Shown in pieces: positions 7,059 through 39,408 of a stretch of DNA of 39,533 nucleotides. The first letter of the stretch is position 1, and each line of letters opens with the position of its first letter. The notes under the pieces were generated by a model. It searched no databases. It was not told the origin of the DNA and saw only the letters and a list, made by a program, of their open reading frames with translations. The stretch lies in contig JAISTQ010000041.1 in the NCBI GenBank assembly GCA_031272505.1, positions 1 through 39,533 of the forward strand. The letters run 5' to 3'. The position numbers and the translations under genes were made by a program. Source of the stretch: Propionibacteriaceae bacterium. Lineage in GTDB: Bacteria > Actinomycetota > Actinomycetes > Propionibacteriales > Propionibacteriaceae.

Positions 7059-7070
7059 ACGTCAAGCATA
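7059..7070 (-). promoter_or_regulatory. -10 element TATGCT of the DUF3263 gene (leaderless)
   Basis: TATGCT occupies 7070-7065 and is followed by six bases (TGACGT) and then the ATG, so transcription should begin at the A of the start codon. Confidence 0.6.
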
Positions 7071-7092
7071 GCTCGCAAATCACATCGGTGTA

Positions 7093-7108
7093 ATTCGTTT
7101 TGACGAAT
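7093..7108. promoter_or_regulatory. Perfect palindrome between divergent DUF3263 and manA
   Basis: ATTCGT, four bases, ACGAAT. It is centred about 30 bases upstream of the DUF3263 -10 and about 45 bases before the manA -10. It is a candidate operator; the binding protein is unknown. Confidence 0.35.
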
Positions 7109-7144
7109 GAGCCGGGTCGACCAGGGGATTCCCGCAGCGGGCTT

Positions 7145-7180
7145 TAGAATCAACACCGAGTTCGGTAAGCTGAGGTGTTG
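7145..7180 (+). promoter_or_regulatory. manA -10 and start-site inverted repeat
   Basis: A TAGAAT hexamer (7145-7150) is directly followed by CAACACC (7151-7157), 16 bases, and GGTGTTG (7174-7180), a perfect 7-bp inverted repeat. It would straddle or immediately follow the transcription start and could be an operator or a 5' leader hairpin. Confidence 0.45.
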
Positions 7181-7210
7181 CTTTGCCCAACATCAGGAAA
7201 GAGGGAGTCC

Positions 7211-8401
7211 ATGCTGCGACTGTCCGGCGCTCCACAGCGATTCGCGTGGGGGACGGTTGACGCTATCCCGAAACTGATCAACCAGCCTTCCGACGGGCAA
7301 CCTTACGCCGAGTATTGGCTGGGCGCCTACCCGCTCGCCCCGGCGGTTTCCGACGCGGGCCCGCTGCACGAGTACATCGCCGCGAATCCGCAGGTGCTGG
7401 GCCGCAAATCCGAGCTTTCCTTCGGGGCGCAATTGCCTTTCTTAATGAAGGTGCTCTCCGCCGCCCACCCGCTCTCGCTGCAAGCGCATCCGGATCGCGG
7501 GCTGGCTGTGGAGGGCTATGCCCGGGAGAACGCGCTCGGCATCCCGCTGGACGATCCGAGCCGCAGCTACAAAGACGCCTGGCCGAAGCCGGAGCTGTTG
7601 GTGGCGGTCTCCCCGTTCGAGACGTTGACGGGCTTCCGCCCGCCGGAGCAGACGGCCGAGCTTTTTGAGGGCCTGGGGCTCAACCGGGATCTCGCCAGCG
7701 TGATCGGCCCGCTGCGCGAACGCAAGGGCGCGGCCGCCATCGCCGAAGTGTTCCTGGACGCGCTCTCATTGAATGGGGATCGGCAGCACTTGATGGACGT
7801 CAGCGCCGCCGCCTTCGTCAAACACGTCAAAGACCCGGGCCCGGTGGGAGAGTTCGCGCGCACCGCGTTGCGGCTGGACGACGTCTTCCCCGGCGACGGG
7901 GCGATCCTCGCCGCCCTGCTGCTCAACCGGATCACGCTCCGCCCTGGCGAGGCGGTCTTCATCAAGCCGGGCACCATGCACGTACACCTGAGCGGCACCG
8001 GCGTCGAGGTGATGGCGAATTCCGACAACGTGGTCCGCGGTGGGTTGACGCGCAAGCACATCGACGTCACCGAGTTGGTGAGAGTCGTCGATTTCGAGCC
8101 GGTCACCCCGCAGATCATCCAGCCGGAGCTGGTGGAGCCGGGGGTAGAGACGTACCCCGTCGACGTCGAGGAGTTCACCGTCTGGCGGTTGCAATTGTCC
8201 CCCGATTATGGCCGGGTGACGCTTCCGGGCGAAGGCTCGGCGCGCATCCTCTTCGTGGTGGCGGGCAGCGCTTCGGTGAGCACTGGCCCGGAAACCAATA
8301 CGCTGGCGCACGGGGAGGCGGTCTTCCTCGGGGCTGACGAGACGGACGTGCGGATCAGCGGCGACGCCACCGCCTTTGTCTCCGCTTCCGGGCTGCGTTG
8401 A
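7211..8401 (+). CDS. manA: Mannose-6-phosphate isomerase, class I
   Basis: This 396-residue enzyme interconverts mannose 6-phosphate and fructose 6-phosphate, feeding mannose into glycolysis or supplying precursors for mannosylated glycans and GDP-mannose. The zinc-binding set of type I isomerases is visible: Q91 and H93 in SLQAHPD, E128 in KPEL, and the later His in TMHVH. VMANSDNVVRGGLT and the cupin-like C-terminal part are also typical. The start is the ATG at 7211 because AGGAAAGAGGGAG lies just upstream; an in-frame ATG at 7175 lacks such a site. It converges on the glutamate dehydrogenase gene with only 11 bases between stops. Cytosolic. Confidence 0.95.
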   Translation: MLRLSGAPQRFAWGTVDAIPKLINQPSDGQPYAEYWLGAYPLAPAVSDAGPLHEYIAANPQVLGRKSELSFGAQLPFLMKVLSAAHPLSLQAHPDRGLAVEGYARENALGIPLDDPSRSYKDAWPKPELLVAVSPFETLTGFRPPEQTAELFEGLGLNRDLASVIGPLRERKGAAAIAEVFLDALSLNGDRQHLMDVSAAAFVKHVKDPGPVGEFARTALRLDDVFPGDGAILAALLLNRITLRPGEAVFIKPGTMHVHLSGTGVEVMANSDNVVRGGLTRKHIDVTELVRVVDFEPVTPQIIQPELVEPGVETYPVDVEEFTVWRLQLSPDYGRVTLPGEGSARILFVVAGSASVSTGPETNTLAHGEAVFLGADETDVRISGDATAFVSASGLR

Positions 8402-8412
8402 GTACGTTAGCG

Positions 8413-11400
8413 TCAGTGCGCGGCGAGTAGCGCGCGGACTTGGCCGAGGCCGACGCTCATCCGCGCCAAATCCGGCGGTTCTTCACTCAAAGCCCGCAGG
8501 ATCTTGATGCGGTCTTCGACGCCTGGGTTGGCATCCCGCCATGCCCGCACCACCGCGTCCGGATCCCCGATGCGCTCAATCCCGGCTTCGTGGACCGCCC
8601 GGATGGTGAGTTCCACCTGGGCGGACAGCAGCTCGTCGCGTAGCGCCGCCCGGCTCATCGCCTCCCAACGATCCCGCCGCGGCAACTGGTAAACCTTCTG
8701 GCCCAGCGCGTCCAAGTGCAGCAACTCGACCAGCCTGAAGTGGACGGCGGTCACCGCCACCGGATCGACCTCCAGCCGGCGGGCGGCCGCCACGATTCCG
8801 AGCGCGAAATGCGAATACCCGGCCACCGCCATCGACGTCGCCAACTCCTCCGGAGCGCCCTGGGTCAGCCAACGTTGCTCCTTGCGTTCCACATGGCCGC
8901 TTTGACCCTCCGTCAGCAGCCCGCGCATCGCCTGGCGCACCAGGGCGACCGGCTCGGCGAACTCCGCCACCGCCGCCTTGATGTCCAGCGGCGTGCGCCG
9001 GTTGTGCAGCAGCCAGCGGGTGGCCCGCTCCACCATCCGGCGCAGCTCCAGCCGCAGCTCGGTGGAAAGCTGATCGTCCAGCCCGGACATCCGGCGCAGC
9101 AGTACCTCGGCCAAGCCCACCTGGTAGATCGAGCGGGCGGCCAACTGGGCGCGCACCACATCGGCGATTCCGGCGCCGGTCTCCGAGGAGAGCCGGTAGA
9201 ACGCGGTGATGCCCTGCGAATCCACGAACCGGTTCACCGCCACCGTGGTGATGATCTCGCGGGCCAGCCGGTGCCCCGGCATCAGCGCCGCAAAACGATC
9301 CTTGAGCTGTTCGGGGAAATACTCGGTGAGCCGATCCGCGAGGTACGGGTCTTCCGGCAGGTCGGTGGAGAGCATCCAGGATTTCAAGGCGATCTTGGTA
9401 TACGCCAGCAGCACCGCCAACTCCGGACGGGTGAGCCCCCGGCCTTCCTCCAGCCGCTGCTTCAGCTCCAACTCGCTGGGCAGCCCCTCCAGCTCCCGAT
9501 CCAAGATGCCGTCCGCCTCAAGCTGGCTCATCCAGGCGGAATGCTGCCCGACCATCCCCACCGCGCGCACCCCGGCATTCGAGAGCGCCAGGTTCTGGGC
9601 CTCGTTGTGGCGCAGCACCCGGATCGCGATGTCGTCGGTCATGGTGGCCAAGAGGGCTTCCCGCTCCTCAGCGGGCAGCTCGCCGGCGCCGATCACGTCC
9701 GCCAGCAGGATCTTGATGTTCACCTCATGGTCGGAGGTGTCCACCCCGGCCGAGTTGTCGATGAAGTCGGTGTTGATGGCTCCGCCCGCCGCCGCATACT
9801 CGATCCGTCCAGCCTGCGTCCAGCCCAGGTTTCCGCCTTCGACGGCGGCGCGCGCCCGCACTTGGCAGCCGTCCACCCGCACCGCGTCGTTGGCCTTGTC
9901 GCCAGCGTCCGCGTGGCTCTCCCAGCTGGCTTTCACCAGGGTGCCGATGCCCCCGTTGTAGAGCAGATCGACTGGGGCTTGCAGGATCGCGTGGATCAGT
10001 TCTGACGGCGTGAGCGCAGCTCGGCTTTCCAACCCCAGGGCGGCCTGCACTTCCGGGGTGATCGGGATGGATTTGGCCGAACGCGGATAGACGCCGCCGC
10101 CCGCCGAAATCAACTCCGGGTGGTAATCCGCCCATGACGAACGGGGCAGCTCAAACAGCCGCCGCCGCTCCGCGAAACTCGCCGCCGCGTCCGGATTCGG
10201 ATCGAGGAAGATGTCCCGGTGGTCGAAGGCGGCCACCAGCCGAATGTGCTCGCTGAGCAGCATCCCGTTGCCAAACACGTCACCGCTCATGTCCCCGATG
10301 CCCACCACCGTGAAATCGGTGGTCTGCGGATCGAGGCCCAGCTCGGCGAAATGCCGTTTCGTCGATTCCCAGGCGCCGCGCGCGGTGATCCCCATCGCCT
10401 TGTGGTCGTAGCCGGCCGAACCGCCGGAGGCGAAGGCGTCCCCCAGCCAGAAACCGTGATCCAACGCCACCTGGTTGGCGATGTCGGAGAAGGTGGCCGT
10501 ACCCTTGTCGGCCGCCACCACCAGGTAGGGATCGTCACCGTCGAAACACCGCACCCGCGCGGGTGGCACCACCTGTCCGGCGGCGTAATTGTCGGTCACC
10601 GAGAGCAGCGCCGCCACGAAGGAGCGATAGCAGGCCACCCCCTCGGCCAGCCAGGCCGCCCGGTCGTCATTGTCGGGCAACTGCTGCGGGACGAAACCGC
10701 CCTTGGCGCCCACCGGCACGATCACCGTGTTCTTGACGGTCTGGGCTTTCGCCAGCGACAACACCTCGGTGCGGAAATCCTCAGCGCGATCCGACCAGCG
10801 CAAGCCGCCGCGGGCCACCGGCCCGAAACGCAGATGCACGCCATGGACGCGCGGTGAATACACCGAGATCTCCGCCATCGGACGCGGCTGCGGCAGCAGC
10901 TCCAACTCGCGTGAGGCGATCTTGTAGGCCAACGCCGGACGGATGCCATACTCGTCGTCACGGGTCCAGTCCACCTCGAAGGCGTTGGTGCGCTTGCAAG
11001 CCTTGATGAAGGCCACAAAATGCCGCAGGATGCGATCGGCGTCCAGGCTGGTCACTTGCTCGATTCCGGCAGCCACCGCATTGATGGCGTCGGCGTCCCC
11101 CGGCCCGTCCGGATCGAACTTGGCCCGGAAGGCCGCCACCAGCCCGGCGGTCAACTGCGGGTTCGCCTCCAACGCGGAGGCCATGTACGCCTGCGAGTAA
11201 CCGACTCTCGCCTGCTTGAGGTAGCGGGAGATGCCGCGCAGCCAGACGACTTCCTCCCACTCCAATCCAGCGGTGAGCACCAGCCGGTTCAGCGGGCCGG
11301 ATTCGCACCAGCCCCGATAGGAGGCGTTGAAGGCCGCGATCAGCCGTTGGCGGCTGGCCGCCTCCCCGTCAAAACTGGCTGGCAGCCGCAGCCCGAAATC

Positions 11401-13173
11401 GTAAACCCAGGCTGGACGGCCGCGCACGGTCACCGTGAAGGGCTGTTCTTCGACGACGTCCGCGCCCAACTGCGCCAGGTGCGGCAACACCTCGTGCAAG
11501 TCCAACTCCGCGAAGGTGTACACCTTGAAGCGTTCCAGGTTCCCATGCGGCTCCAGCACGTATTCCAGATCGTCCTCGGCGTCGAGTCGGTTGAGCACGT
11601 CCATGTCGCGCACCGCGGTCTCCGGCGGGATCACCTCCTGGTAGGCCTCGGAGAACTCGATGCCCCGGCCTTCGGCGGGCCGATCCGTCAATTGGGCCAT
11701 CACCCGGTCATCCCAGGTGACCACCGCCTCATTGGCCAACTCCTGCAGCCGCGCCTCGTTGACGCTGCTGGGCGCGTTCGGCCCGAGCTTCACCACATAG
11801 AACAGCCGGGTGAGCACCGCCTCGGAGACCGAGGTGGTGTAATCCAACTCCTCCCCGCCCAGCTCTTCGAGCAGGATCGCGGAGATCTTCGAGCGGGATT
11901 TGGTGGTGTAGCGGTCACGCGGCAGATATACCAGCACCGAGGCGAACTGGCCGTAGCGGTCCCGCCGCAGATAGACCCGCACCAGGCGTCGATCCCGAAG
12001 CTGCGAAATCGCGGTGACGATGGGTGCCAGCTCGGCGGTGGAGGCGTCGAACAGCTCGTCGCGCGGGTAGTCGGCGATCACCCGCACCAGCGCGTTCCAG
12101 CCATACGAGCCTTCCGGATAGCCCGAACCAAGCAGCAACTCCCGGGCCTTGGCCGCCAGCACCGGGATGTGCGGGACCGACTCCTCGTAGGCGGAGGCGG
12201 CGAAGAGGCCCAGGAAACGGTGTTCGCCGATCAACTCGCCGGTGGGGCTGTAGGCGCGCACCCCGATGTAATCGGTGTACACCGGGCGGTAGACGGGCGA
12301 GCGTTGCGGATGCTTGGTGACCGCCAACACGTGCTTTGAACCGGGCAGCGGGACGGCATGGAAGCCCGACAGCGACGCGGGCGACGGATTGCCGCGCTGG
12401 ATGCCAAGGCCGGTCTGCGGGACGGGGGTGAAACTGTCGCCTTCGACGGCGAACTCTTGATACCCCAGGAAGATGAAATTGTCGGGCAGCCAGGAAAGCA
12501 GCTCGCGGGCGTTGGTCAACTCGGTCTCCGGAACCGCCGCCTGGTTCTCGGCGAGCAACTGCCGGGCCTGCTCCAGCCGCTGCAGCATCTCGCCCCAGTC
12601 GTCCACCACCAGCCGGACGGCCTGCAGCGCGCCCTTCACTCCGGCGAGCAAAGCCGGCGCGCCCGACTCCGCGCTCTCACCCAGCGACGGATACACCTCC
12701 AGGCTGAGCCACGATTCGCTGCTGGCGGCCAGCCGGTCGAACCCGTCCGCCACCCCGAGCAGCTTGCCCGACTCGTCGCGCCGCACCCGCAACTGCGGAT
12801 GTTCCAGGTTGCGCAGCTCCCAACCCAGGCGGCGCAACTCCATCGTCACGGTGTCCACCAGGAACGGCCGGTCCGTGGTGACCAACTGCACCAGCGTCGA
12901 TCCGGCAATGGTGACCAGCTCGCCGGCACCGGTTTCCGGGGTGACGATCTGCACCAGATCCTCGCCGCCGATGCGCTGCGCTCCCAGTTTGACGTGGGCA
13001 GCCACCTGGGCGGCCACCTGGAAGGGGTCGGGGTGGTACGAGTCGTCCTCGGAGAGGTGTTGCAAATAGGCGCCCACGAACTGGGCCCAGTCGGCATCCG
13101 GGATGATTCCCGGGTTGTGGGCGAGGCAGGCGGCGGAAATTTCAGGCAGACGGACGCTGACGGGTTCAGTCAC
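8413..13173 (-). CDS. gdh: NAD-dependent glutamate dehydrogenase, large type
   Basis: This 1586-residue protein belongs to the large (about 180 kDa) bacterial NAD-specific glutamate dehydrogenases, which deaminate glutamate to 2-oxoglutarate and ammonia, mainly in glutamate catabolism. The first half is the long regulatory region with ACT-like segments. The catalytic core begins near residue 780 with RGGLRWSDR, EDFRTEVLSL and QTVKNTVIVPVGAKGG, followed by the nucleotide-binding GIGDMSGDVFGNGM. A helical C-terminal domain completes the family length. Its start is GTG without a Shine-Dalgarno, but with TAGGCT exactly six bases upstream, so a leaderless mRNA is likely. It lies behind dapC on the same strand but has its own promoter and a hairpin in between. 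Confidence 0.96.
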   Translation of the reverse strand: MTEPVSVRLPEISAACLAHNPGIIPDADWAQFVGAYLQHLSEDDSYHPDPFQVAAQVAAHVKLGAQRIGGEDLVQIVTPETGAGELVTIAGSTLVQLVTTDRPFLVDTVTMELRRLGWELRNLEHPQLRVRRDESGKLLGVADGFDRLAASSESWLSLEVYPSLGESAESGAPALLAGVKGALQAVRLVVDDWGEMLQRLEQARQLLAENQAAVPETELTNARELLSWLPDNFIFLGYQEFAVEGDSFTPVPQTGLGIQRGNPSPASLSGFHAVPLPGSKHVLAVTKHPQRSPVYRPVYTDYIGVRAYSPTGELIGEHRFLGLFAASAYEESVPHIPVLAAKARELLLGSGYPEGSYGWNALVRVIADYPRDELFDASTAELAPIVTAISQLRDRRLVRVYLRRDRYGQFASVLVYLPRDRYTTKSRSKISAILLEELGGEELDYTTSVSEAVLTRLFYVVKLGPNAPSSVNEARLQELANEAVVTWDDRVMAQLTDRPAEGRGIEFSEAYQEVIPPETAVRDMDVLNRLDAEDDLEYVLEPHGNLERFKVYTFAELDLHEVLPHLAQLGADVVEEQPFTVTVRGRPAWVYDFGLRLPASFDGEAASRQRLIAAFNASYRGWCESGPLNRLVLTAGLEWEEVVWLRGISRYLKQARVGYSQAYMASALEANPQLTAGLVAAFRAKFDPDGPGDADAINAVAAGIEQVTSLDADRILRHFVAFIKACKRTNAFEVDWTRDDEYGIRPALAYKIASRELELLPQPRPMAEISVYSPRVHGVHLRFGPVARGGLRWSDRAEDFRTEVLSLAKAQTVKNTVIVPVGAKGGFVPQQLPDNDDRAAWLAEGVACYRSFVAALLSVTDNYAAGQVVPPARVRCFDGDDPYLVVAADKGTATFSDIANQVALDHGFWLGDAFASGGSAGYDHKAMGITARGAWESTKRHFAELGLDPQTTDFTVVGIGDMSGDVFGNGMLLSEHIRLVAAFDHRDIFLDPNPDAAASFAERRRLFELPRSSWADYHPELISAGGGVYPRSAKSIPITPEVQAALGLESRAALTPSELIHAILQAPVDLLYNGGIGTLVKASWESHADAGDKANDAVRVDGCQVRARAAVEGGNLGWTQAGRIEYAAAGGAINTDFIDNSAGVDTSDHEVNIKILLADVIGAGELPAEEREALLATMTDDIAIRVLRHNEAQNLALSNAGVRAVGMVGQHSAWMSQLEADGILDRELEGLPSELELKQRLEEGRGLTRPELAVLLAYTKIALKSWMLSTDLPEDPYLADRLTEYFPEQLKDRFAALMPGHRLAREIITTVAVNRFVDSQGITAFYRLSSETGAGIADVVRAQLAARSIYQVGLAEVLLRRMSGLDDQLSTELRLELRRMVERATRWLLHNRRTPLDIKAAVAEFAEPVALVRQAMRGLLTEGQSGHVERKEQRWLTQGAPEELATSMAVAGYSHFALGIVAAARRLEVDPVAVTAVHFRLVELLHLDALGQKVYQLPRRDRWEAMSRAALRDELLSAQVELTIRAVHEAGIERIGDPDAVVRAWRDANPGVEDRIKILRALSEEPPDLARMSVGLGQVRALLAAH

Positions 13174-13185
13174 GGGACTAGCCTA
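13174..13185 (-). promoter_or_regulatory. -10 element TAGGCT of gdh (leaderless)
   Basis: TAGGCT (13185-13180), then AGTCCC, then GTG. No purine-rich ribosome site lies between the promoter and the start. Confidence 0.6.
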
Positions 13186-13283
13186 GTTCGGCTGGACGGG
13201 CGCTTGGGTGATTTGGGGTGGGGAGGTATAACTGAAATTGAGTTGTAACTTTTACTCGGCGTTTTAGCTGAGGAGCAACTCGC

Positions 13284-13325: not shown

Positions 13326-13328
13326 AAT

Positions 13329-18548: not shown

Positions 18549-18560
18549 ACCCAAATCCTA
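18549..18560 (-). promoter_or_regulatory. -10 element TAGGAT of the DUF1707 gene (leaderless)
   Basis: TAGGAT (18560-18555), six bases, ATG. A G-rich block abuts it upstream. Confidence 0.6.
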
Positions 18561-18933: not shown

Positions 18934-19872
18934 CTACTCGTCAACTTGCAAGGAAGCGATTGCAGCTTCGACGCCGGGTTCAGCCTCCGGAAAGTTGTTG
19001 GGTACTGAAGTGTAGAAGAGCGACCAGCGGGTGTCGCTGGTGGGGATGACGAATACTTTCACCTGCTCGCCGGTTGCTTCGAGGCCTACGGCAGAGAAGG
19101 TGATGGTGGCGTCGACCATCCAGCCGGTGTGCCCGGAGACGGTATGCGCTGCCCCGGTTTGGGTAGCCACGGTGATTTCATTGTCGTGATAGAACTCTCC
19201 GATGATGCACTGAAAGAGCAACTCCGCACCCTGCTGCGGGGAGGCGAACCCGTCGCCAACCGCAAGCTCGCCGATCAATACCGACGCACCCCAGTCGTGA
19301 TACCCGTCGTACCCGTATTCGTTGATATACCATTGCCCGCCGACCAGATAGCTGTACGCAGCCCGACTGTCCCAGGTGACTCCCTCCCACGGGGAAGGGA
19401 GCTTTTCATAGCTCATCAGCCCGCCATAGACGCGTCCGCCCTCCTCACGGGGTTTGAGTTCATCATTGGTCTCCGGGATCTTCGGGCAAGTGTCCACTGA
19501 CGGCGTCCCGATTGGATTCGAGCCCCCCGCGCCCGTCCAGTTGCCAGGGTTTGCGACAACGAACCAGATGCCTACCGCAAGCACCAGCACTACGGCGACC
19601 AGCACAATCCACCATGCCTTCGAAGACTTCGGCTGCTGGTAGTACTCCGGATAGGCGCTCACCGGTGCCGCATTCGGGTTGACGTTCCGCACCAGATAAT
19701 TCGCCGCTTGGGGTGGGGGAGTGTAAACCGGAGCCGGTTGCTGCGCTGGGCCGCTCACCGGTTGCCCGGCCGGGGGATTGTTGGTGACCGCCGTCGTCCA
19801 CGCGGCGCCGTCCCAATACCGGAATAGCCCCGGCATTCCGGCTGGATCTGGATACCACCCCGCCTGCTGCAT
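18934..19872 (-). CDS. DUF2510 single-pass membrane protein
   Basis: This encodes 312 residues from the ATG at 19872, which immediately gives the conserved DUF2510 motif GWYPDPAG...RYWDGAAWT (about 5-30), usually found at the cytosolic N-terminus of actinobacterial membrane proteins. A Pro/Gln-rich linker follows, then one membrane span (AWWIVLVAVVLVLAVGIWFV) near residues 85-105. An extracellular domain of about 200 residues follows with no known motif; it has three Cys (in DTCPK and LLFQC among others) and many aromatics. The longer frame to 19917 would start next to the tRNA and lacks start signals. TAGGAT lies seven bases before the ATG. Function unknown; membrane topology is inferred. 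Confidence 0.8.
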   Translation of the reverse strand: MQQAGWYPDPAGMPGLFRYWDGAAWTTAVTNNPPAGQPVSGPAQQPAPVYTPPPQAANYLVRNVNPNAAPVSAYPEYYQQPKSSKAWWIVLVAVVLVLAVGIWFVVANPGNWTGAGGSNPIGTPSVDTCPKIPETNDELKPREEGGRVYGGLMSYEKLPSPWEGVTWDSRAAYSYLVGGQWYINEYGYDGYHDWGASVLIGELAVGDGFASPQQGAELLFQCIIGEFYHDNEITVATQTGAAHTVSGHTGWMVDATITFSAVGLEATGEQVKVFVIPTSDTRWSLFYTSVPNNFPEAEPGVEAAIASLQVDE

Positions 19873-19885
19873 ATCCCCCATCCTA
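19873..19885 (-). promoter_or_regulatory. -10 element TAGGAT of the DUF2510 gene
   Basis: TAGGAT (19885-19880), seven bases (GGGGGAT), then ATG. The G-run is too close to the ATG to be a good ribosome site, so leaderless starting is the simpler reading. Confidence 0.5.
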
Positions 19886-20064: not shown

Positions 20065-20076
20065 TACCATTTGAGC
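20065..20076 (+). promoter_or_regulatory. -10 element TACCAT of the PfpI-family gene
   Basis: TACCAT (20065-20070), six bases (TTGAGC), ATG. No Shine-Dalgarno is visible. It is back to back with the tRNA promoter. Confidence 0.55.
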
Positions 20077-22485: not shown

Positions 22486-23558
22486 TCGCTGCGGATGGTG
22501 ATTTGGGTGGTGAGGGTCTGCAGGGCCTGGTTGGCGATGGGGGTGATTTGGAGGGATTCCAAGGCTTGCAGGGCGGTGGCGCGCGCCGATTCGATGTCGG
22601 TTTCGGTGGCGGCCAAGGCGCCGGAATCGGTGATCAGCTGACGGAGTTCGGCAAGCTCGGTGACGGAGAGTTCGGGCTGGTCGAAGAGTTGCTGGAAGCG
22701 GGCGCGGGCTGCCGGGCTGGCGAGTTCGAGGGTGTGGGCGACCAGTTTCGTCAGTTTCCCTTCGCGCAGGTCGTCGGCGGTGGGCTTGCCCGTCACCCCT
22801 TCGTCGCCAAACACGCCGAGGATGTCGTCACGGTATTGGAAAGCCCGGCCCAAGGCGGAGCCGAACTCGTCGAACTGCCGCAGCACAGTGCCGTCCGCCC
22901 GCGCCAACGCGGCACCCAACTGCAGCGGCTGGGTGATGGTGTAGCGGGAGGTCTTGTATTCGACGACCTTCTCGATGGCGGCGGCGTCGGCGGCCAGCAG
23001 ATCGAGGTACTGCCCGGCGTTCACTTCGGTGCGGATGTCGCTCAAAATCAGCAACGCGCCCTCAAAGGCGGTCTTCGGGAGCTGGACCCGTTCCACCATC
23101 TCGGCCGACCAACTCCACAGCAGGTTGCCCAGCAGGATCGCGCTCCCGGTGCCGAAAGCGGTGGCGTCCCCACTCAAACCCCGCTGCTGATGCAGCGCGG
23201 CAAACTCGCGGTGGACGGTGGGCGCGCCCCGGCGCAACGCGGAAGAATCCATCACGTCGTCGTGCACCAGCGCGCTGGCGTGCAGCAACTCCAGAGAGGC
23301 GGCGATGGCCGTCAACCAGTTCGGGACGGCGCGTTGCCCGTCGGCCAGCCCGACTGCCGCCCAGCCCCAAATACAGCAGGCCGCCCGAATCCGCTTGCCG
23401 CCACTGGTGAGCCGTTCGGCGGCGGCGATCAGCGGCTCGAACTCAGCGTCGATGTCGAGCAGTTGCGCCCGTTTGATCCGCAGGAACAGCGTGATCGCCT
23501 GCTGCACCTCGCGTTTCAAATCGGCGCTAATCGGCTGGGCTGGGTCTAGCTCGAACAC
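22482..23558 (-). CDS. idsA: Polyprenyl (geranylgeranyl-type) diphosphate synthase
   Basis: This 358-residue all-helical trans-prenyltransferase condenses isopentenyl diphosphate with an allylic diphosphate to give C20-range or longer prenyl chains for menaquinone, carotenoids or other isoprenoids. The first Asp-rich motif is HDDVMD (99-104), followed by RRGAPTVH. The second region reads QYRDDILGVFGD, the DDxxG form common in actinobacterial IdsA-like enzymes, and GKRIRA (54-59) binds substrate phosphate. Chain length cannot be fixed from sequence alone. The start is a GTG with TAGGTT six bases upstream and no ribosome site. It is divergent from metF across only 22 bases, and its 3' end overlaps the convergent surface-protein gene. 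Confidence 0.9.
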   Translation of the reverse strand: MFELDPAQPISADLKREVQQAITLFLRIKRAQLLDIDAEFEPLIAAAERLTSGGKRIRAACCIWGWAAVGLADGQRAVPNWLTAIAASLELLHASALVHDDVMDSSALRRGAPTVHREFAALHQQRGLSGDATAFGTGSAILLGNLLWSWSAEMVERVQLPKTAFEGALLILSDIRTEVNAGQYLDLLAADAAAIEKVVEYKTSRYTITQPLQLGAALARADGTVLRQFDEFGSALGRAFQYRDDILGVFGDEGVTGKPTADDLREGKLTKLVAHTLELASPAARARFQQLFDQPELSVTELAELRQLITDSGALAATETDIESARATALQALESLQITPIANQALQTLTTQITIRSD

Positions 23559-23570
23559 AGTCTTAACCTA
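23559..23570 (-). promoter_or_regulatory. -10 element TAGGTT of idsA
   Basis: TAGGTT (23570-23565), six bases (AAGACT), GTG. Its first two bases are shared with the metF -10 on the other strand. Confidence 0.65.
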
Positions 23571-23580
23571 CACTTAGCCC
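23569..23580 (+). promoter_or_regulatory. -10 element TACACT of metF
   Basis: TACACT (23569-23574), six bases (TAGCCC), ATG. The -35 region lies inside the idsA coding sequence. Confidence 0.65.
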
Positions 23581-24447
23581 ATGCCCACAATTGCGCAGTT
23601 GCTGGCGGAACCAGATCGCAAGACGATGTCTTTTGAGTTTTTCCCGCCCAAAGACGCCGCTGCCTTGGCGCAGTTGGAACAGGCGATCAAGGAGTTGGAG
23701 GGGCTGGGCCCGGATTTCATCTCGGTCACCTACGGGGCTTCGGGCTCCACCCGCGAGCGCACCATCGCGGCGACGGCTTTCATTCAGGAGCAGACCAGCG
23801 TGCAGACGATGGGGCATCTGACGTGTGTGTCTCAGTCGGTCGCGGAGATCGAAGGGGCGTTGCAGGCTTACCGGCAGGCTGGGGTGCGGCACATCTTGGC
23901 GCTGCGCGGCGATCCGCCGGGCGGGCCGACGGCTCCCTGGGTGCGCCACCCGGATGGCCTCGACAACGCCACCGAGCTAGTGCGGTTGGTGAAAGCGGCG
24001 GGGGATTTCTGTGTCGGCGTCGCCGCCTTTCCCGACGCCCACCCCGAGCATCACGACTTCGAGCTTGACGCCCGCATCCTCGCCGACAAACAGGCCGCCG
24101 GGGCCGAGTTCGCCGTCACCCAGCTCTTCTTCGGGGCCCACAAGTACTTCGAACTGGTAGCGCGGCTCCGCGCCCACGGCTGCACCCTGCCGGTGATTCC
24201 CGGCATCATGCCGATCACCAACGTCAGCCAGATCGAACGCTTCGCCGACCTCTCCGGCGCGGCCCTCCCCGCCGACCTCGTCTCCCGCCTCCAAGCCGTC
24301 CAAGACGACCGTGCCGCCGTCCGCGCCATCGGCATCGAGACCGCCGTCACCCTCTGCCGCGAACTCCTCGCCGGCGGCGCCCCCGGCCTGCACTTCTTCA
24401 CCCAGAACCGCTCCGCCGCCACCGCCGAAATCATGACCGCCCTGTAG
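23581..24447 (+). CDS. metF: 5,10-methylenetetrahydrofolate reductase
   Basis: This 288-residue FAD-containing TIM-barrel enzyme reduces methylene-tetrahydrofolate to methyl-tetrahydrofolate, the methyl donor for methionine synthase. Diagnostic motifs are SFEFFPPK (17-24) with the catalytic Glu, FISVTYGASG, THLTC-type GHLTCV (79-84 region), ILALRGDPP, and FFVTQ-like FAVTQLFF. The C-terminal GIETAVTLCRELL and PGLHFFTQNR complete the domain. The pairing with a prenyl synthase gene in divergent orientation is a recurrent actinobacterial arrangement. It converges on the HelD gene over a short repeat-containing spacer. No Shine-Dalgarno is seen; start geometry is leaderless. Confidence 0.95.
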   Translation: MPTIAQLLAEPDRKTMSFEFFPPKDAAALAQLEQAIKELEGLGPDFISVTYGASGSTRERTIAATAFIQEQTSVQTMGHLTCVSQSVAEIEGALQAYRQAGVRHILALRGDPPGGPTAPWVRHPDGLDNATELVRLVKAAGDFCVGVAAFPDAHPEHHDFELDARILADKQAAGAEFAVTQLFFGAHKYFELVARLRAHGCTLPVIPGIMPITNVSQIERFADLSGAALPADLVSRLQAVQDDRAAVRAIGIETAVTLCRELLAGGAPGLHFFTQNRSAATAEIMTAL

Positions 24448-27608: not shown

Positions 27609-27621
27609 GAGCGCAACCCTA
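27609..27621 (-). promoter_or_regulatory. -10 element TAGGGT of the EamA gene
   Basis: TAGGGT (27621-27616), seven bases (TGCGCTC), GTG. Confidence 0.5.
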
Positions 27622-31714: not shown

Positions 31715-31726
31715 TAATCTCAACAC
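31715..31726 (+). promoter_or_regulatory. -10 element TAATCT of the aldo/keto reductase gene
   Basis: TAATCT (31715-31720), six bases (CAACAC), ATG. It uncouples this gene from the kinase-aldolase pair. Confidence 0.6.
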
Positions 31727-32586: not shown

Positions 32587-32598
32587 TATGATGGCCGG
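32587..32598 (+). promoter_or_regulatory. -10 element TATGAT of the ABC transporter genes
   Basis: TATGAT (32587-32592) is one mismatch from TATAAT. Six bases (GGCCGG) then lead to the GTG. Confidence 0.6.
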
Positions 32599-33300: not shown

Positions 33301-34696
33301 GCTCTCCCTGCGCGAGATCCGCTTCCACCCGAGCCGTTACTTGGCCACCGTGATCGCCGTCGGCCTGTCCGTCGGCTTCCTGGTGCTGGTCTCGGTCTAT
33401 ACCGCCACCGAAGGCGCCGCCCAGGGGATGGAGGGCATCGCCGTCGACGCCACCAAGTGGCTGCTCTGGACGTTCGCGGGCATCGCCGCGCTCACCGGCA
33501 TCATGGTGATCTCGAACACCTTCACCATCCTGCTCACCCAGCGGCAACGCCAACTCGGGCTGCTGCGCGCCATCGGGGCCACCACCGGGCAGGTGCTGCT
33601 GGCCACCGGCATCGAGGCGCTGCTGATCGGGCTGATCGGCGATCTGCTCGGCCTGGTGCTGGGCATCTCTTTGGGTGCGGCGTTCGCCGGTTTCACCGGA
33701 GCGCTCGCCAATGGGCTGGTGATCGGCTGGAGCGAAATCTACCTCGAGCTGTTCCTTGGTTTGTTGTTGACGCTGATTGCCGCCATCGCCCCCTGTCTGC
33801 GGGCCGCCCACGTGGCGCCCATGGCGGCACTGCAAGTGGTGCCGACGGCCACCGCCCGCAAGTTCGGCGTGATCGCGCGCAGCATCGTGGCCGGGCTCTT
33901 TGCCTTGGTGGGCATCGTGATGGTGCTGCCGGTGTTCTCGTTCAACCAGAACGCGCTGCTCTTCGCGGTGGCCGCTTCCTTCTGCTTCGCCGTCACCTTG
34001 CTGGTGGCCGCGCCGCTCTATTTGAAGCCGATCCTGTGGCTGCTCGCCAAGCTCGTCAGCCCGCTCAGCCCGGTGGTTCGGCTTGCCGCCGGGAACGTGA
34101 TCCGCAACCCGCGCCGCACCACCGCCACCGCCACCGCGCTGTTGCTCGCCGTCACCATCATCATCACCCTGCAAGTCGGGGTGACCAGCGGTCGTGAGTT
34201 CGTGATTGAGGAGTTGAGCAAGCGGGTCGGCTCCGATCCGATGCTGATCCAGGCCATCAATCAAGCCTTCGACGCGTTGCTGATCGGGGCGACCGCGTTG
34301 ACGGCGGTGGCCGTGCTCATCGCGCTCGTCGGCGTCGCCAACACCCTGATCCTCTCGGTAATCGAGCGCACCCGCGAGAACGCGCTGCTCCGCGCCCTCG
34401 GCCTGCAGACCGGCCAGCTCAAAAAGATGATGCTGATCGAGGCGCTGCTGATCGCCGTGGTGGGCGCCGTCGTCGGCATCCTCGCCGGCCTGTTTTTCGC
34501 CTGGCTCGGCGTCACCGCCATCGCCAACATGCTCGCTTTCGACCTCGGCCACGGCATCGACATCCCGCTGCGCACTGACTGGCTCTACACCGTCGGCCTG
34601 ATCGCCGCCTGCGCCCTCGCCGCCGCCCTCGCCTCCATCATCCCGGGCCGCCGCGCCGCCAAAGCCTCCCCCGTCGAAGCCCTCGCCGTCGTGTAG
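33293..34696 (+). CDS. FtsX-like ABC permease with two core domains and trimmed ectodomains
   Basis: This encodes 467 residues from the GTG at 33293 (GGGAGG seven bases upstream, inside the ATPase gene). Two FtsX cores are visible: the first with MVISNTFTILLTQRQRQLGLLRAIGA (about 70-95) and the second with VANTLILSVIERTRENALLRALGL near 345-370. Each is preceded by a single helix after a juxtamembrane basic segment (REIRFHPSRYL; NVIRNPRRTTAT). In the usual actinobacterial double-FtsX permeases, each unit carries a large MacB-like extracellular domain; here only short loops of about 20-50 residues replace them. About eight membrane helices remain. A complete ATPase partner suggests it is functional. 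Substrate unknown. Confidence 0.9.
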   Translation: MFKLSLREIRFHPSRYLATVIAVGLSVGFLVLVSVYTATEGAAQGMEGIAVDATKWLLWTFAGIAALTGIMVISNTFTILLTQRQRQLGLLRAIGATTGQVLLATGIEALLIGLIGDLLGLVLGISLGAAFAGFTGALANGLVIGWSEIYLELFLGLLLTLIAAIAPCLRAAHVAPMAALQVVPTATARKFGVIARSIVAGLFALVGIVMVLPVFSFNQNALLFAVAASFCFAVTLLVAAPLYLKPILWLLAKLVSPLSPVVRLAAGNVIRNPRRTTATATALLLAVTIIITLQVGVTSGREFVIEELSKRVGSDPMLIQAINQAFDALLIGATALTAVAVLIALVGVANTLILSVIERTRENALLRALGLQTGQLKKMMLIEALLIAVVGAVVGILAGLFFAWLGVTAIANMLAFDLGHGIDIPLRTDWLYTVGLIAACALAAALASIIPGRRAAKASPVEALAVV

Positions 34697-34704
34697 ACGC
34701 AGCA

Positions 34705-34755
34705 AGCATGGCCCCTGACGGCCCGCGTTGGGCGAAGGGGCTGTGCGCGGGGGCC
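34705..34755. terminator. GC-rich hairpins between convergent genes
   Basis: GCCCCT (34711-34716) pairs with AGGGGC (34736-34741), and an alternative stem with GGGCCGT-type arms overlaps it. It separates the convergent permease and CoA-transferase genes. It lacks a T run on either strand, so strength is uncertain. Confidence 0.4.
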
Positions 34756-34761
34756 GTTGGG

Positions 34762-36270
34762 TTATAGGGCCATGGTGCCGGTCTCGAGGAAGCGGGAGTG
34801 GAAGCTCAGCGCCTCGGTGAGGATGTGCGGCGTGTGTTGGCTGTTGGCCGACTTGACGGCGCGCTCGAAGTAATCGAGGAGGATGGGCTTGTAATCCGGG
34901 TGGGCGCAATTCTCGATGATGACTTTGGCGCGCTGCTGCGGGCCGAGGCCGCGGATGTCCGCCAGGCCCTGCTCGGTGATGATGACGTGAGTGTCGTGCT
35001 CGGTGTGGTCGTGATGCGAGACCATCGGGACGATGGCCGAGATCGCGCCGCCCTTGGCCGTCGACGGGGTGACGAAGGCGGAGATGTAGGCGTTCCGGGT
35101 GAAATCGCCGGAGCCGCCGATGCCGTTCTGCATCTTCGAGCCCATGATGTGGGTGGAGTTCACGTTGCCGTAGATATCGGCCTCGATCAGGCCGTTGCTA
35201 GCCAGCACGCCCAGGCGGCGGATCGGCTCGGGGTGGTTCGAGATGTCCTGCTGGCGCAGCACGATGGACTTCGCGTAGAAGGCCGCGTTGTCGTTCATCT
35301 TGTGCGCGTAATCCGGGCCGAGCGAGAAGGCGGTGGCCGAGGCGGCGACCAGCTTGCCCGCGTCAATCAGGTCGATCATGCCGTCCTGGATGACCTCGGT
35401 GTACGAGGTGAGATTCTCGAACGGGCCTTCCAATAGGCCGGAGAGCACCGCGTTGGCGATGTTGCCCACGCCGGATTGCAGCGGCAGCAGGTTCTTGGGC
35501 AAGCGGCCCTTGCTGACCTCGTGCTCCAGGAACTCGAGGTAGTAGCCGGCGATCTTCTTCGAATCTTCGTCAAGTGGCTTGAACGGGGTGTTGCGATCCG
35601 GGGAATCCGTCTCCACCACGGCGACGACCTTGTCGAACGGAATCTCGTAGTACGACTGGCCGATGCGCTGGCCGGCGGAAGTGATCGGGATCGGGGTGCG
35701 ATCCGGGGGCAGGGCGACGCCGTACCAGATGTCGTGCATCCCTTCCAGGCCCATGGACATCCAGGAGTTGACCTCCAGGATGATGAAATCTGCCGCCTCC
35801 ATCCAGGAGACGTTGTTGCCAACCGACGACGACGGGATCAGCAGGCCGTCCTTGGTGATGGCCGTCAACTCGATGATGGCGCAATCCATCTTGCCGTAGT
35901 GCCCAGCGAGCACCTGCGGGCCGGAATGCGAGAGATGGGCGTCCACATAGGTGGTGGTGCCGTCATTGATGCGGTTGCGCATCGACGGATCAGACTGGTA
36001 GGGCATCCGCAGCTTCATGCCGTAGACATCCGAGAGCGAGCCGTCCAACTCCGGGGCGGTGGAAGCGCCGGTGAAGATACCCACCTGGAACTCCTCGCCA
36101 CGCTCGTGGGCTGCGGCGATCTGCTGCGCCAGCGCCACCGGCACCGCCTTCGGGTATCCCGATCCGGTGAAGCCGCTCACGCCGACATTCATCCCATTCT
36201 TGATGAGCTTCGCGGCATCCTCCGCGCTCATCAGCTTGCTGCGCCACTTCTTCTTGGCCACGCGCGTCAT
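34762..36270 (-). CDS. Acetyl-CoA hydrolase / succinyl-CoA:acetate CoA-transferase family
   Basis: This encodes 502 residues, full length for the Cat1/AarC/Ach1 class I CoA-transferases. The N-terminal SAEDAAKLIKNGMNVGVSGF and TGASTAPELDG segments bind CoA. LQSGVGNIANAVLSGL and SYTEVIQDG carry the oxyanion loop and the likely catalytic Glu. The C-terminal GSGDFTRNAYIS and VIITEQGLADIRGL are family hallmarks. The reaction moves CoA from succinyl-CoA to acetate or propionate (or the reverse), saving ATP in fermentation or acetate overflow. Whether acetate or propionate is preferred cannot be read from sequence. ATG with AGGAGAG upstream. It follows the DUF1015 gene by 47 bases. Confidence 0.93.
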   Translation of the reverse strand: MTRVAKKKWRSKLMSAEDAAKLIKNGMNVGVSGFTGSGYPKAVPVALAQQIAAAHERGEEFQVGIFTGASTAPELDGSLSDVYGMKLRMPYQSDPSMRNRINDGTTTYVDAHLSHSGPQVLAGHYGKMDCAIIELTAITKDGLLIPSSSVGNNVSWMEAADFIILEVNSWMSMGLEGMHDIWYGVALPPDRTPIPITSAGQRIGQSYYEIPFDKVVAVVETDSPDRNTPFKPLDEDSKKIAGYYLEFLEHEVSKGRLPKNLLPLQSGVGNIANAVLSGLLEGPFENLTSYTEVIQDGMIDLIDAGKLVAASATAFSLGPDYAHKMNDNAAFYAKSIVLRQQDISNHPEPIRRLGVLASNGLIEADIYGNVNSTHIMGSKMQNGIGGSGDFTRNAYISAFVTPSTAKGGAISAIVPMVSHHDHTEHDTHVIITEQGLADIRGLGPQQRAKVIIENCAHPDYKPILLDYFERAVKSANSQHTPHILTEALSFHSRFLETGTMAL

Positions 36271-36317
36271 TTTGCTCTCCTGTGTTCGGTTGACTGCAAG
36301 GTAATAGCGTAGTGCAT

Positions 36318-37565
36318 TCAGAGCGCGGCAGTCGGCCGGATTACGAAGCCGGTGCGCAACTTCGGGGTGAAAAATGTGGACTTCGGCGGCATCAGCAAAC
36401 CCTCGCGGGCGGTGCGCTTGATCTCCGCGATTGACGTCGGACGAATCAGCACCCCGGCGGTGTACGCCCCGGAAGCCACGGCGGCCCGCATTTCGGCCAG
36501 GCCGTGCTGGTAGCTCACCGTCAGATTCGAGTCGTGCGGATCGGCGGCGATGGGAGCCAGCGCGTGCTCCAAGTAAGCGCCGTCCAGGGCGCGCACCCCG
36601 TCGAACGCGTCATCTTTGGGCGTCATCCATTCGGCGGTGCCGTCCGGATGCAGGAAGACCAGGCGGCCCAGGCGGGTCATCTGCGCCAACGTTTCGCCGG
36701 TGAGCTCGGCGTGCAAAGGCGTGAAGTCGAAGCACGCGGCGAACACCCCGCGCAGGTGCTCCAGGCAGATGCCCGAGTACAGCCGGTGGATCGCCTCGAT
36801 GGAAAGCTGCTCGTCAATCAGTTCGTTGACGAACGTGAGCGTGTATTCCGCCTCGGTGTCCGTCCGACCGCTGCCCGCGCGCACCTCGTCGCGATAGAAA
36901 CGGGAGACGGCGTAGCGGTGGTGCCCGTCGGCGATCAGCACGTCGTCGGCGGCGAGGATCTGCGCGATCTCGGCGATGCGCTGCGGATCAGATACCCGTT
37001 CGACCGAATGCGTCACCCCGGCCACCTCCAGCGATCCCAACGGCTCACCCGGAGCGGACAGCGCCGCCGTCAACCCGGAAGCCAGGCTCAACCCCCAGAC
37101 CGGGGAGAGGTTGGTGGCCGTCGCCCGCGTCAAATCCAAACGGTCAGACTTCGCCTTCGGGGTGGTCCGCTCGTGGGGGAGCACCCCGCCCGCGCCTTCG
37201 TCAACCACTTCGAGGCCGCCGAGCACCCCGACGATCTCGCGGGCCGCGCCCGTGGCGTCGGTGAAAGCCATCCGGTAGATGGTGAAGCTGGGCGTCGCGT
37301 CTTGTACCAGCACCCCGGCAGCCAGCCACTGCCGCAGCAGCGAAGCCGCCTGCGCATAGGCGTCCGCCTCCGCCGCGACCTGCTGGCCGGGCGCGGACAG
37401 ATCGCCGCCAGCGGGGAGGTCGATCCAGACGATGTTGTGCGGATCCAGCGCCTTGTAGTAATCGATGTCGGCATCGGAGAGCACGTCGTAGGGGGGAGCG
37501 ATCACCGCGTCGTAATCGGTGCCGGGGGCGTAGCGGATCGCGCGGAACGGTTCAAATTTTGGCAT
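36318..37565 (-). CDS. DUF1015 family protein
   Basis: This encodes 415 residues from the second of two close ATGs (37565), because TAGGCT lies exactly six bases before it; the first ATG (37571) touches that hexamer. The family pattern is clear: an N-terminal IAPPYDVLSDADIDYY (23-38), PHNIVWIDLP, DRLDLTRAT (141-149) and DGHHRYAVSRFYRDE (213-227). The DGHHR motif resembles that of the ParB/SerK-type fold, in which some members are small-molecule kinases, so a phosphotransfer role is conceivable but unproven. Cytosolic. It sits between a cation exporter and a CoA-transferase on the same strand. Confidence 0.92.
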   Translation of the reverse strand: MPKFEPFRAIRYAPGTDYDAVIAPPYDVLSDADIDYYKALDPHNIVWIDLPAGGDLSAPGQQVAAEADAYAQAASLLRQWLAAGVLVQDATPSFTIYRMAFTDATGAAREIVGVLGGLEVVDEGAGGVLPHERTTPKAKSDRLDLTRATATNLSPVWGLSLASGLTAALSAPGEPLGSLEVAGVTHSVERVSDPQRIAEIAQILAADDVLIADGHHRYAVSRFYRDEVRAGSGRTDTEAEYTLTFVNELIDEQLSIEAIHRLYSGICLEHLRGVFAACFDFTPLHAELTGETLAQMTRLGRLVFLHPDGTAEWMTPKDDAFDGVRALDGAYLEHALAPIAADPHDSNLTVSYQHGLAEMRAAVASGAYTAGVLIRPTSIAEIKRTAREGLLMPPKSTFFTPKLRTGFVIRPTAAL

Positions 37566-37577
37566 AGGCATAGCCTA
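37566..37577 (-). promoter_or_regulatory. -10 element TAGGCT of the DUF1015 gene
   Basis: TAGGCT (37577-37572), six bases, ATG. The first three bases are the TAG stop codon of the upstream cation-exporter gene. Confidence 0.6.
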
Positions 37578-38459
37578 CTGGGCTGGCTCAATGTGGACGT
37601 AGGTAGTGGCATCTTCCAGCGTTTCGGCCACCCGGTCTTCGACCAGATCGGCGACGTCATGGGAACGCCGCACCGACCAATCACCGGGCACTTCGAGCGT
37701 CACATAGACGAACCGCTGACGGCCCGATTCGCGGGTGCGCAGGCTGGTGAGCGCCACCTGCTGCTCGCTGGCGAGCTGATCCAAGGCGGCGGTGAGCTGG
37801 GCCACGTCCTCGGGCGGCAAGGCGGCGTCCAGCAGCCCCACGAAGGAGCGGCGCAGCAGCCGGATGCCGGTGATCAAAATGTTCAAGCCCACCAGGATCG
37901 CGATCACCGGATCCAGCCAGACCCAGCCGGAGAGCATCACCAGCAGCATCGCGGCGAGCACCCCGGCCGAGGTGATCACGTCGGTCATCAGGTGGCGTCC
38001 GTCCGCCTCCAAGGTGATCGAGCGCTCCCGTTTGCCGACCCGGATCAGGTACCAGCCCGTCCCCAGGTTGAAGATGGACGCCGAGAGCGAGAGCAGCAGG
38101 CCCCAGGAGAGGTTTTCGAGTTCGCTGGGATACAGGAACCGCTGCACCGCGGAATAGATGATGCCGACGGCGGCCACGAAGATCATCAGGCCTTCGGCCG
38201 CGGCGGAGAGGTATTCGGCCTTGCCATGGCCGAAATCGTGGTCGGAGTCGGCGGGCCGGGCGGCCACGATCATCGCCCAGATCGCGATCAGGGCGGCGGC
38301 CAGGTTGACGGTGGATTCCAGCGCGTCCGACCACAAGCCCACCGAGTTGGTGAGCAGCGCGGCGACCAGCTTGATCGTCAAGGTGACGATGGCGGTGGCC
38401 ACCGAGAGCCACAGGTATTTGAGCAGGCTCTGGGAATGATGGTGGGAGCCGGAATGCAT
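37575..38459 (-). CDS. Cation diffusion facilitator (zinc/iron-type efflux)
   Basis: This encodes 294 residues with six membrane helices and a C-terminal cytosolic domain of about 85 residues. The metal-site motifs are present: SDALES in helix 2, HDFGHGKAEYL after helix 2-3, and DGRHLMTDV in helix 5. The N-terminal MHSGSHHHS is His-rich and may bind metal. The family exports Zn, Fe, Mn, Co or Cd by proton exchange; helix-2 S/D and helix-5 H/D fit the FieF/zinc-like subgroup, but selectivity is not certain. Six bases follow the Pro-rich membrane gene, so the two are probably cotranscribed; only weak ribosome signal. Confidence 0.93.
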   Translation of the reverse strand: MHSGSHHHSQSLLKYLWLSVATAIVTLTIKLVAALLTNSVGLWSDALESTVNLAAALIAIWAMIVAARPADSDHDFGHGKAEYLSAAAEGLMIFVAAVGIIYSAVQRFLYPSELENLSWGLLLSLSASIFNLGTGWYLIRVGKRERSITLEADGRHLMTDVITSAGVLAAMLLVMLSGWVWLDPVIAILVGLNILITGIRLLRRSFVGLLDAALPPEDVAQLTAALDQLASEQQVALTSLRTRESGRQRFVYVTLEVPGDWSVRRSHDVADLVEDRVAETLEDATTYVHIEPAQ

Positions 38460-38465
38460 GGCAGC

Positions 38466-39395
38466 CTACCGGGTGATGTCCGGGCGTTCGTGGTTGGCCA
38501 AGGCCCGCCAGACGATGATCCAAAGCGTCCAAGGCAGGATGCAGCAAGCGATCTGGCTGACGCCGTTCACCGACTCCCAGGCCATCGAGAGACCGAAGTA
38601 ATACGGACTACTGCTGAATAATGTCAAGGCAAACAACACCGCCAACGCGAACGGGACATAGAAGCAGATCAAGACGGCCTGCCGCCGGTAGCGGATTCGG
38701 AAACTGAGCCCGAAGGCCAGGATCAGCAACAGCCCGGAGAACCAGTTAAACGCGGCGCCGAGGATCAGCGAGATCAAGACGCCGGGGGTGACCGCGTCAA
38801 AGACCCGCATCGCGCCCACCCGGCCGCGCGGCGGAGCCCAGCCGGGGTAGGGGTAGTAGGAGTAGGGGACGCCACCGGGGGCCATCTGGGCGTTCCACTG
38901 CCCGGTCGACGGCGGGACGGGGGTCGGTTGGGCGGGCGGCTGGTTCCAGGTGCCCACGGACTGCCGCGTCTTGTACTTCGAATCGGCGGGCAGGATCACC
39001 TGCTGTGACGAATAGACGCGCGGGGCGGGCAACTGGGCCACCGAGGTCGGAATCGGGGCGGGCGGCGAGAGAATCGCCTCCGGCGTCGGCCCGAGCGGCT
39101 GTTTGGGCTCCCAGGTCTGGGTGCTGGAGGTGCCGACGGCCTCCCAGGCGGAGGTGCTCACCGAGGATTGGACGACGGAGAAGGGCTCAGCCGCATTGCG
39201 CCGCTCTTCCTTCGGCGGCAGGATCTCAGCCAGCGGTTTGAGCGGTTGTGGCAGCGAATAGCTGGGTGGCTGCGGCGGCGCGGGCGGAATGACGGGCGGT
39301 GGCTCGGCGGTCGACAGCGCGGGCGTGTCCGGGGCGTCGAAGCCGTCCGGACGCTCCACCGGCGCATATTCTGGCCCGTCCATCCAAGTCGCCAT
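38466..39395 (-). CDS. Pro-rich membrane protein of unknown function
   Basis: This encodes 309 residues from the ATG at 39395; longer and shorter in-frame starts (39428, 39383) lack the TAGACT hexamer found seven bases before 39395. Residues 1-195 are hydrophilic and very rich in Pro, Gln, Ser and Thr, with PPAPPQPPSYSLPQP and similar runs, a flexible cytosolic or extracellular tail. The last 110 residues hold three or four membrane helices (GVLISLILGAAFNWFSG; LLLILAFGLSF; VLICFYVPFALAVLFAL; IACCILPWTLWIIVW). No known domain is recognised. It leads a pair with the cation exporter. The tail composition resembles the DUF2510-type envelope proteins of actinobacteria, but the GWYPDP motif is absent. 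Confidence 0.78.
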   Translation of the reverse strand: MATWMDGPEYAPVERPDGFDAPDTPALSTAEPPPVIPPAPPQPPSYSLPQPLKPLAEILPPKEERRNAAEPFSVVQSSVSTSAWEAVGTSSTQTWEPKQPLGPTPEAILSPPAPIPTSVAQLPAPRVYSSQQVILPADSKYKTRQSVGTWNQPPAQPTPVPPSTGQWNAQMAPGGVPYSYYPYPGWAPPRGRVGAMRVFDAVTPGVLISLILGAAFNWFSGLLLILAFGLSFRIRYRRQAVLICFYVPFALAVLFALTLFSSSPYYFGLSMAWESVNGVSQIACCILPWTLWIIVWRALANHERPDITR

Positions 39396-39408
39396 ACCCC
39401 AAAGTCTA
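39396..39408 (-). promoter_or_regulatory. -10 element TAGACT of the Pro-rich membrane gene
   Basis: TAGACT (39408-39403), seven bases (TTGGGGT), ATG. Confidence 0.5.

Follow-up and report, generated by a model that had tools for sequence, protein, structure and literature searches.

Leaderless-type starts and a divergent idsA/metF pair with a shared TA in a Propionibacteriaceae contig

The systems closest to the one considered here are the leaderless genes of Actinobacteria. In the excerpts of published papers on which our comparisons draw, a TANNNT motif lies about 12 bp upstream of such starts, which account for a mean of 19.2% of genes (range 2.3-29.8) and are linked to operon-proximal genes, and orthologues switch initiation class with distance (Zheng et al. 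2011, PMC3160421). Here we analyse contig JAISTQ010000041.1 of assembly GCA_031272505.1, a stretch of 39,533 nucleotides from a Propionibacteriaceae bacterium (hereafter "the window"), in which twelve starts follow TANNNT at six or seven bases. We consider it very probable, judging from the sequence, that these boxes are housekeeping-type -10 elements giving leaderless mRNAs, that two classes of start coexist, and that the divergent genes idsA and metF are served by a single bidirectional core.

Propionibacterium acnes, which we take to belong to the same family as this organism, has been mapped by differential RNA sequencing. Leaderless mRNAs, a TAnnnT -10 element and start codons (both ATG and GTG) at mapped starts are reported there, together with a -35 box GnTTnG at translation-gene promoters (PMC3848588). 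In Mycobacterium tuberculosis 26% of the genes with a primary start site are leaderless, TANNNT is present and no conserved -35 is found (PMC3898074); a pyrimidine flanks the transcription start, C being commonest at -1 (mycobacteria; PMC3898074, PMC4633059). A mycobacterial study gives a rule based on ATG and GTG, and finds 71 of 97 expressed orthologues to be leaderless as well (PMC4633059). Closely juxtaposed divergent promoters are common in M. tuberculosis, one divergent leaderless pair being shown (PMC3898074), and at the bidirectional promoters of Escherichia coli divergent starts lie most often 18 bp apart, 10 and 23 bp also being common (PMC12825309).

TANNNT before start codons in the window and the genome

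A sequence-only reading of the window had proposed twelve leaderless starts, nine with TANNNT ending six bases before the start codon and three with seven, and every one of the twelve carries the box at that distance (Table 1). Four sequence tests support the leaderless interpretation: the distance peak, a pyrimidine at -1, a context in which the gene needs a promoter, and conservation in orthologues. The start calls rest on box positions, statistics, context and conservation, and the transcription starts and leaderless translation are predictions. Below, TANNNT ending six or seven bases before ATG or GTG is referred to as the geometry, and starts that exhibit it as leaderless-like.

The sample comprised 56 stretches of one 2.23 Mb, 67-contig genome (880,820 bases including the window, about 841 kb without it), in which a simple codon-usage caller found 657 genes. 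The 628 genes lying outside the window supplied candidate codons close to their 5' ends, which were compared in seven groups. TANNNT precedes 88 of 637 ATG candidates (64 at gap 6 and 24 at gap 7) and 60 of 798 GTG candidates (40 and 20), compared with 6/541 for TTG (4 and 2), 4/671 for CTG (3 and 1), 7/753 for ATC/ATT (3 and 4), 11/901 for ACG/AAG (5 and 6) and 6/823 for GTC/GTT (1 and 5). The tally of TANNNT distances thus exhibits a clear peak at six and seven that is confined to ATG and GTG, and deep within genes no such peak is seen before either codon. A leaderless-specific avoidance of TTG was also considered and rejected, since TTG is not enriched before Shine-Dalgarno cores either (17/536); it may simply be a rare start codon in this genome.

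Counted per gene, the geometry is present in 146 of 598 genes outside the window (24%), versus 7 to 21 at each of eleven alternative distance pairs; 30 genes too close to the ends of stretches were left out of the 628. Removing the roughly 16 matches due to chance leaves slightly over one fifth of genes. The sequence-only reading had put the share at a third. The geometry itself is real, but that figure is too high for the sampled genome, because the window, with 12 of 29 called genes, is somewhat richer (Fisher p = 0.049 versus outside). Those twelve scan matches are eleven of the proposed starts plus a doubtful match at 3541, the start at 19872 lying beyond the scan range of a gene that the caller had shortened. 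The spacing also points to the start codons at 37565 (backed by orthologues) and 18548 (by spacing alone) in place of those of the longer open reading frames.

The base before the start was compared between 160 leaderless-like starts, twelve of them from the window, and 198 starts preceded by a Shine-Dalgarno core. A pyrimidine occupies -1 in 127 of the former (91/114 at gap 6, 36/46 at gap 7) and in 99 of the latter (p about 8e-9); the corresponding figures are 430/1143 for candidates with neither signal and 80/166 for those with TANNNT solely at 9-30 bases. With the window rows removed, the difference persists (117/148 versus 92/188). The purine at +1 follows from the choice of ATG and GTG and is not separate evidence. 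Nor is the absence of a Shine-Dalgarno core of 5 or more bases before any of the 160 starts independent evidence, because a motif at -12 to -7 largely excludes such a core.

Gene context points in the same direction. With the window included, half of the genes that have an opposite-strand neighbour upstream (80/160) exhibit the geometry. For genes with a same-strand neighbour the figures are 22/108 at a distance above 150 bases, 29/121 at 40-150 bases and only 19/206 at less than 40 bases. The geometry tracks genes needing their own promoter. Since genes close behind a same-strand gene mostly lack it, two classes of start coexist, leaderless-like genes standing beside Shine-Dalgarno genes as the sequence-only reading had it. 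As a separate observation, GTG makes up 65 of the 160 leaderless-like starts and 45 of the 198 Shine-Dalgarno candidates (p = 0.0003); in M. tuberculosis the frequencies are reported to be similar in both classes (PMC3898074).

Orthologues were collected for seven of the twelve starts, with 30 loci each, window locus included, taken as the best by score from 60 related genomes and hence a non-random sample; one locus at a contig edge was dropped each for DUF1015 and NAD-glutamate dehydrogenase (GDH). A locus was counted when TANNNT stood at gap 6 or 7 before an in-frame ATG or GTG near the aligned start. The geometry is conserved for five of the seven, namely metF, idsA, DUF3263, DUF1015 and, less uniformly, the aldo/keto reductase, which has a Shine-Dalgarno core instead in 6/30 loci (counts in Table 1). 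Two Shine-Dalgarno genes used as controls rarely exhibit it: ferredoxin in 2/30 loci (core in 25), these two relatives (L220, L221) representing a change of start class, and cpn60 in 0/30 (core in 27). Among the metF loci of a named collection, the eight nearest actinobacterial ones include six with the geometry, versus two in the 72 remaining rows, mostly other phyla but with one acidimicrobial and one solirubrobacterial row. The nearest named metF record is a Propionibacteriaceae metagenome-assembled genome with 70% identity, and on that basis the window is assigned to this family.

Predicted mechanism and alternatives

At leaderless-like starts RNA polymerase would melt the TANNNT box and begin RNA at the purine of the ATG or GTG six or seven bases on. 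The resulting mRNA would have no leader, and ribosomes would initiate on its 5'-terminal AUG or GUG without a Shine-Dalgarno sequence. We infer from the sequence both the transcription starts and the leaderless translation, as well as the mutual exclusion of idsA and metF transcription discussed below.

Several observations weigh against this interpretation. The gene caller cuts 5' ends short, and chance by itself should place about 16 of 598 genes in each two-distance bin. A same-strand gene ends close upstream of 31727 (28 bases), 32599 (38) and 37565 (9). Shine-Dalgarno candidates are also found near the start at 4/30 metF and 3/30 DUF3263 loci. Six simple -35 patterns, including GnTTnG, exhibit no clear positional peak before the 114 gap-6 starts; in P. 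acnes the -35 box is reported and the starts were measured (PMC3848588), whereas here no -35 is seen and the starts are predicted. Finally, GDH has the geometry at the window locus alone among 29 loci, and PfpI at 4/30 including the window.

These last two genes are the likeliest instances of an alternative that concerns part of the list: some starts may follow a TANNNT present by chance, the true start having a leader. The relatives more often carry Shine-Dalgarno cores at both genes (20/29 for GDH, 16/30 for PfpI), which, with the chance rate given above, favours this explanation. We nevertheless hold it to be rather unlikely. Both window starts lack a Shine-Dalgarno core of 5 bases or more, PfpI is leaderless-like in three further loci, and GDH has no other candidate start in the scanned range. 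The two genes represent either a change of start class in this lineage or chance matches.

A second alternative accepts TANNNT as a promoter but shifts the RNA start by 1-5 bases, upstream or downstream, from the first base of the codon, so that the RNA would carry a very short leader or end elsewhere. Mapped starts in P. acnes overlap 50 annotated start codons, and 88 more start codons lie within 10 bases after one (PMC3848588); in the present genome TANNNT is found at gap 6 as well as gap 7, and to a lesser degree it is also in excess at gap 8. However, the peak is narrow and bound to ATG and GTG, and the preference for a pyrimidine at -1 in the leaderless-like starts, with A in only 6/160, is as expected if the purine of the codon is +1. 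Such displaced starts appear very improbable. A further reading, in which TANNNT is no promoter but acts in translation as an alternative ribosome-binding element of the RNA, would fit its fixed distance from the start codon and the absence of an adjacent Shine-Dalgarno core. It is rejected as next to impossible on gene context and the -1 base: the motif clusters at genes that must have a promoter of their own and is seldom seen close behind a same-strand gene, and the -1 pyrimidine fits a transcription start. In the P. acnes and M. tuberculosis excerpts, moreover, the mapped -10 is this very motif.

The idsA/metF gap, stop codons and other features of the window

The predicted -10 elements include an opposed pair. 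The idsA-like gene begins with GTG at 23558 on the minus strand and metF with ATG at 23581 on the plus strand, leaving 22 bases between them and predicted transcription starts 23 bp apart. Their boxes, TAGGTT and TACACT, overlap on the single TA at 23569-23570. The spacing of these opposed elements is one of those by which bidirectional promoters are recognized (starts about 18, 23 or 10 bp apart); the founding paper on bidirectional promoters with shared -10 elements dates from 2021. The 10-bp core would load polymerase either way, one direction at a time. A consensus promoter scanner run over 23300-23800 found no promoter.

Among 60 idsA/metF loci of relatives, 3 lack a match to one gene, 6 are not divergent and 3 lack the geometry on one side. 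The remaining 48, a set of rows in which some genomes are counted twice, have divergent genes that are both leaderless-like; in 38 of these the starts are 48-58 bases apart with separate boxes. The shared-TA form is found in the window species (22 bases) and in two genomes of one genus from another family (L028 and L039, 23 bases), whose open frames extend over 302 codons for metF and 347 and 348 codons for idsA. Judged from this distribution and not from a tree, the compact form appears to have evolved two or more times.

Other arrangements of the two genes were also noted. In two Propionibacteriaceae metagenome-assembled genomes (L388, L389), idsA lies upstream of metF on the same strand, and the box is missing at both gaps, 6 and 7, before metF. 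The genes are likewise not divergent in L035 and L036, where metF lacks the box, and in L029, where metF yet retains it.

Of the 80 divergent neighbour pairs in the sampled genome, 21 are leaderless-like at both starts, including two pairs with a gap of 22. A strict shared-TA pattern occurs 93 times over 60 genomes versus 30 for a backward control, and 6 times versus 0 in this genome; of 30 such loci that were fetched, 11 have open frames of at least 100 codons on both sides, an open frame being no proof of a gene, and only part of the matches in relatives therefore resemble true gene pairs. An excess of close divergent pairs by motif count alone was rejected: the 8 pairs at gap 17-24, compared with 5.9 per block shuffle, are unconvincing without gene context, and only two of the 8 (the window pair and L046) are flanked by called genes on both sides. 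Separately, in three genomes (L239 of G056, L241 of G044, and G041:C1:4839316-4839343) the shared-TA pattern consists of a near-perfect palindrome, TGTCAAYCTAGRTTGACA. The palindrome adjoins a similar 76-codon frame in the two of these that were fetched and may be an operator over a -10.

A TA is also shared in another manner. The TAG stop of the cation-efflux gene upstream of 37565 supplies the first three bases of its -10 box. Of the 41 sampled starts that have a same-strand stop no more than 60 bases away, seven (37565 and six others) have a box that begins with the stop codon, and the commonest gap between a stop and the next leaderless-like start is 9 bases (6/41). An excess over expectation cannot be claimed for these counts, because stop codons guarantee a TA in GC-rich DNA. 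Among the matches listed in open-licence literature (titles and the beginnings of abstracts), we found nothing on leaderless pairs with a single shared TA and no -10 boxes made from stop codons, which is weak evidence in both cases.

A broader idea, which we offer tentatively, is that leaderlessness may let high-GC genomes reuse scarce TAs, through the shared idsA/metF TA (apparently arisen at least twice) and through the TAs of TAG and TAA stop codons, and that idsA and metF would form an obligate either/or switch without leaders. If true, the switch would pit an isoprenoid-chain gene against a gene of one-carbon metabolism.

Table 1. Predicted -10 boxes and the shared idsA/metF core in the window (loci: those with TANNNT at gap 6 or 7 among the orthologous loci)
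Feature	Position	Strand	Predicted start and gene	Support
-10 box TATGCT	7065..7070	-	6 bases before ATG 7058, DUF3263 protein	28/30 loci
-10 box TAGGCT	13180..13185	-	6 bases before GTG 13173, GDH	1/29 loci (window's own)
-10 box TAGGAT	18555..18560	-	6 bases before ATG 18548, DUF1707/LiaF-like	position; Pfam
-10 box TAGGAT	19880..19885	-	7 bases before ATG 19872, DUF2510 protein	position; Pfam
-10 box TACCAT	20065..20070	+	6 bases before ATG 20077, DJ-1/PfpI	Pfam; 4/30 loci incl. window
-10 box TAGGTT	23565..23570	-	6 bases before GTG 23558, polyprenyl synthetase, idsA-like	28/30 loci
-10 box TACACT	23569..23574	+	6 bases before ATG 23581, metF (MTHFR)	27/30 loci
Shared core AACCTACACT, symmetric core ANNNTANNNT	23565..23574	both	idsA and metF	TA 23569-23570 common to both -10 boxes
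-10 box TAGGGT	27616..27621	-	7 bases before GTG 27608, EamA transporter	position; Pfam
-10 box TAATCT	31715..31720	+	6 bases before ATG 31727, aldo/keto reductase	21/30 loci
-10 box TATGAT	32587..32592	+	6 bases before GTG 32599, ABC ATPase	position; Pfam
-10 box TAGGCT	37572..37577	-	6 bases before ATG 37565, DUF1015	28/29 loci
-10 box TAGACT	39403..39408	-	7 bases before ATG 39395, protein without Pfam match	position

Upstream of the DUF3263 start, in the -35/spacer region (about -37 to -20 from 7058), the window contains a near-perfect inverted repeat, AATCACATCGGTGTAATT (plus strand, 7078-7095). By eye, without a count, most of the 28 leaderless-like DUF3263 orthologues have a similar repeat upstream. 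The repeat looks like an operator, perhaps an autoregulatory one. Matches to a related 14-base pattern occur in 53 of 60 genomes, no genome having more than 5, and one copy (L295) stands before a different small gene. The first part of the window (1-2700) is of lower G+C (0.598 over the first 4 kb). A 582-codon open frame in this part matches nothing in Pfam, and the coding model did not call it.

Comparison with known systems

The phenomenon is known, and its spacing is nothing unusual in this phylum. The sequence-only reading had regarded the strict spacing as the standout feature, but the same had been published for Actinobacteria in 2011 (PMC3160421). Leaderless starts can be read from sequence in a Propionibacteriaceae-like genome whose RNA is unmapped, which helps to mend the start errors of longest-frame calling; gene finders that accommodate leaderless starts exist (PMC9581028). 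The less ordinary part is the shared-TA pair. A gap of this kind, apparently reached separately in another family, offers a small natural test of the way in which a 22-bp gap can drive two leaderless genes, and of whether the two are thereby coupled.

The leaderless genes of Zheng et al. (2011, PMC3160421) agree with those described here in the position of the motif, in their occurrence in high-GC Actinobacteria, in their relation to operons and in the switching of class between orthologues. Divergent pairs with a common -10, as in idsA/metF, are not among the features reported in the excerpted text of that paper. The share of GTG is 29% in P. acnes (PMC3848588), compared with 65 of the 160 candidates in the present sample. 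The lack of a -35 peak agrees with M. tuberculosis (PMC3898074). The excerpts of the mycobacterial papers (PMC3898074, PMC4633059) do not describe a TA common to a divergent leaderless pair, such as idsA/metF has. The predicted 23-bp separation of the idsA and metF starts is one of the common spacings of E. coli bidirectional promoters (PMC12825309). The excerpts on those promoters, which were studied in E. coli, do not discuss leaders; both RNAs of the idsA/metF pair are predicted to begin at start codons, so that the core sits in the 22-bp gap between the two genes.

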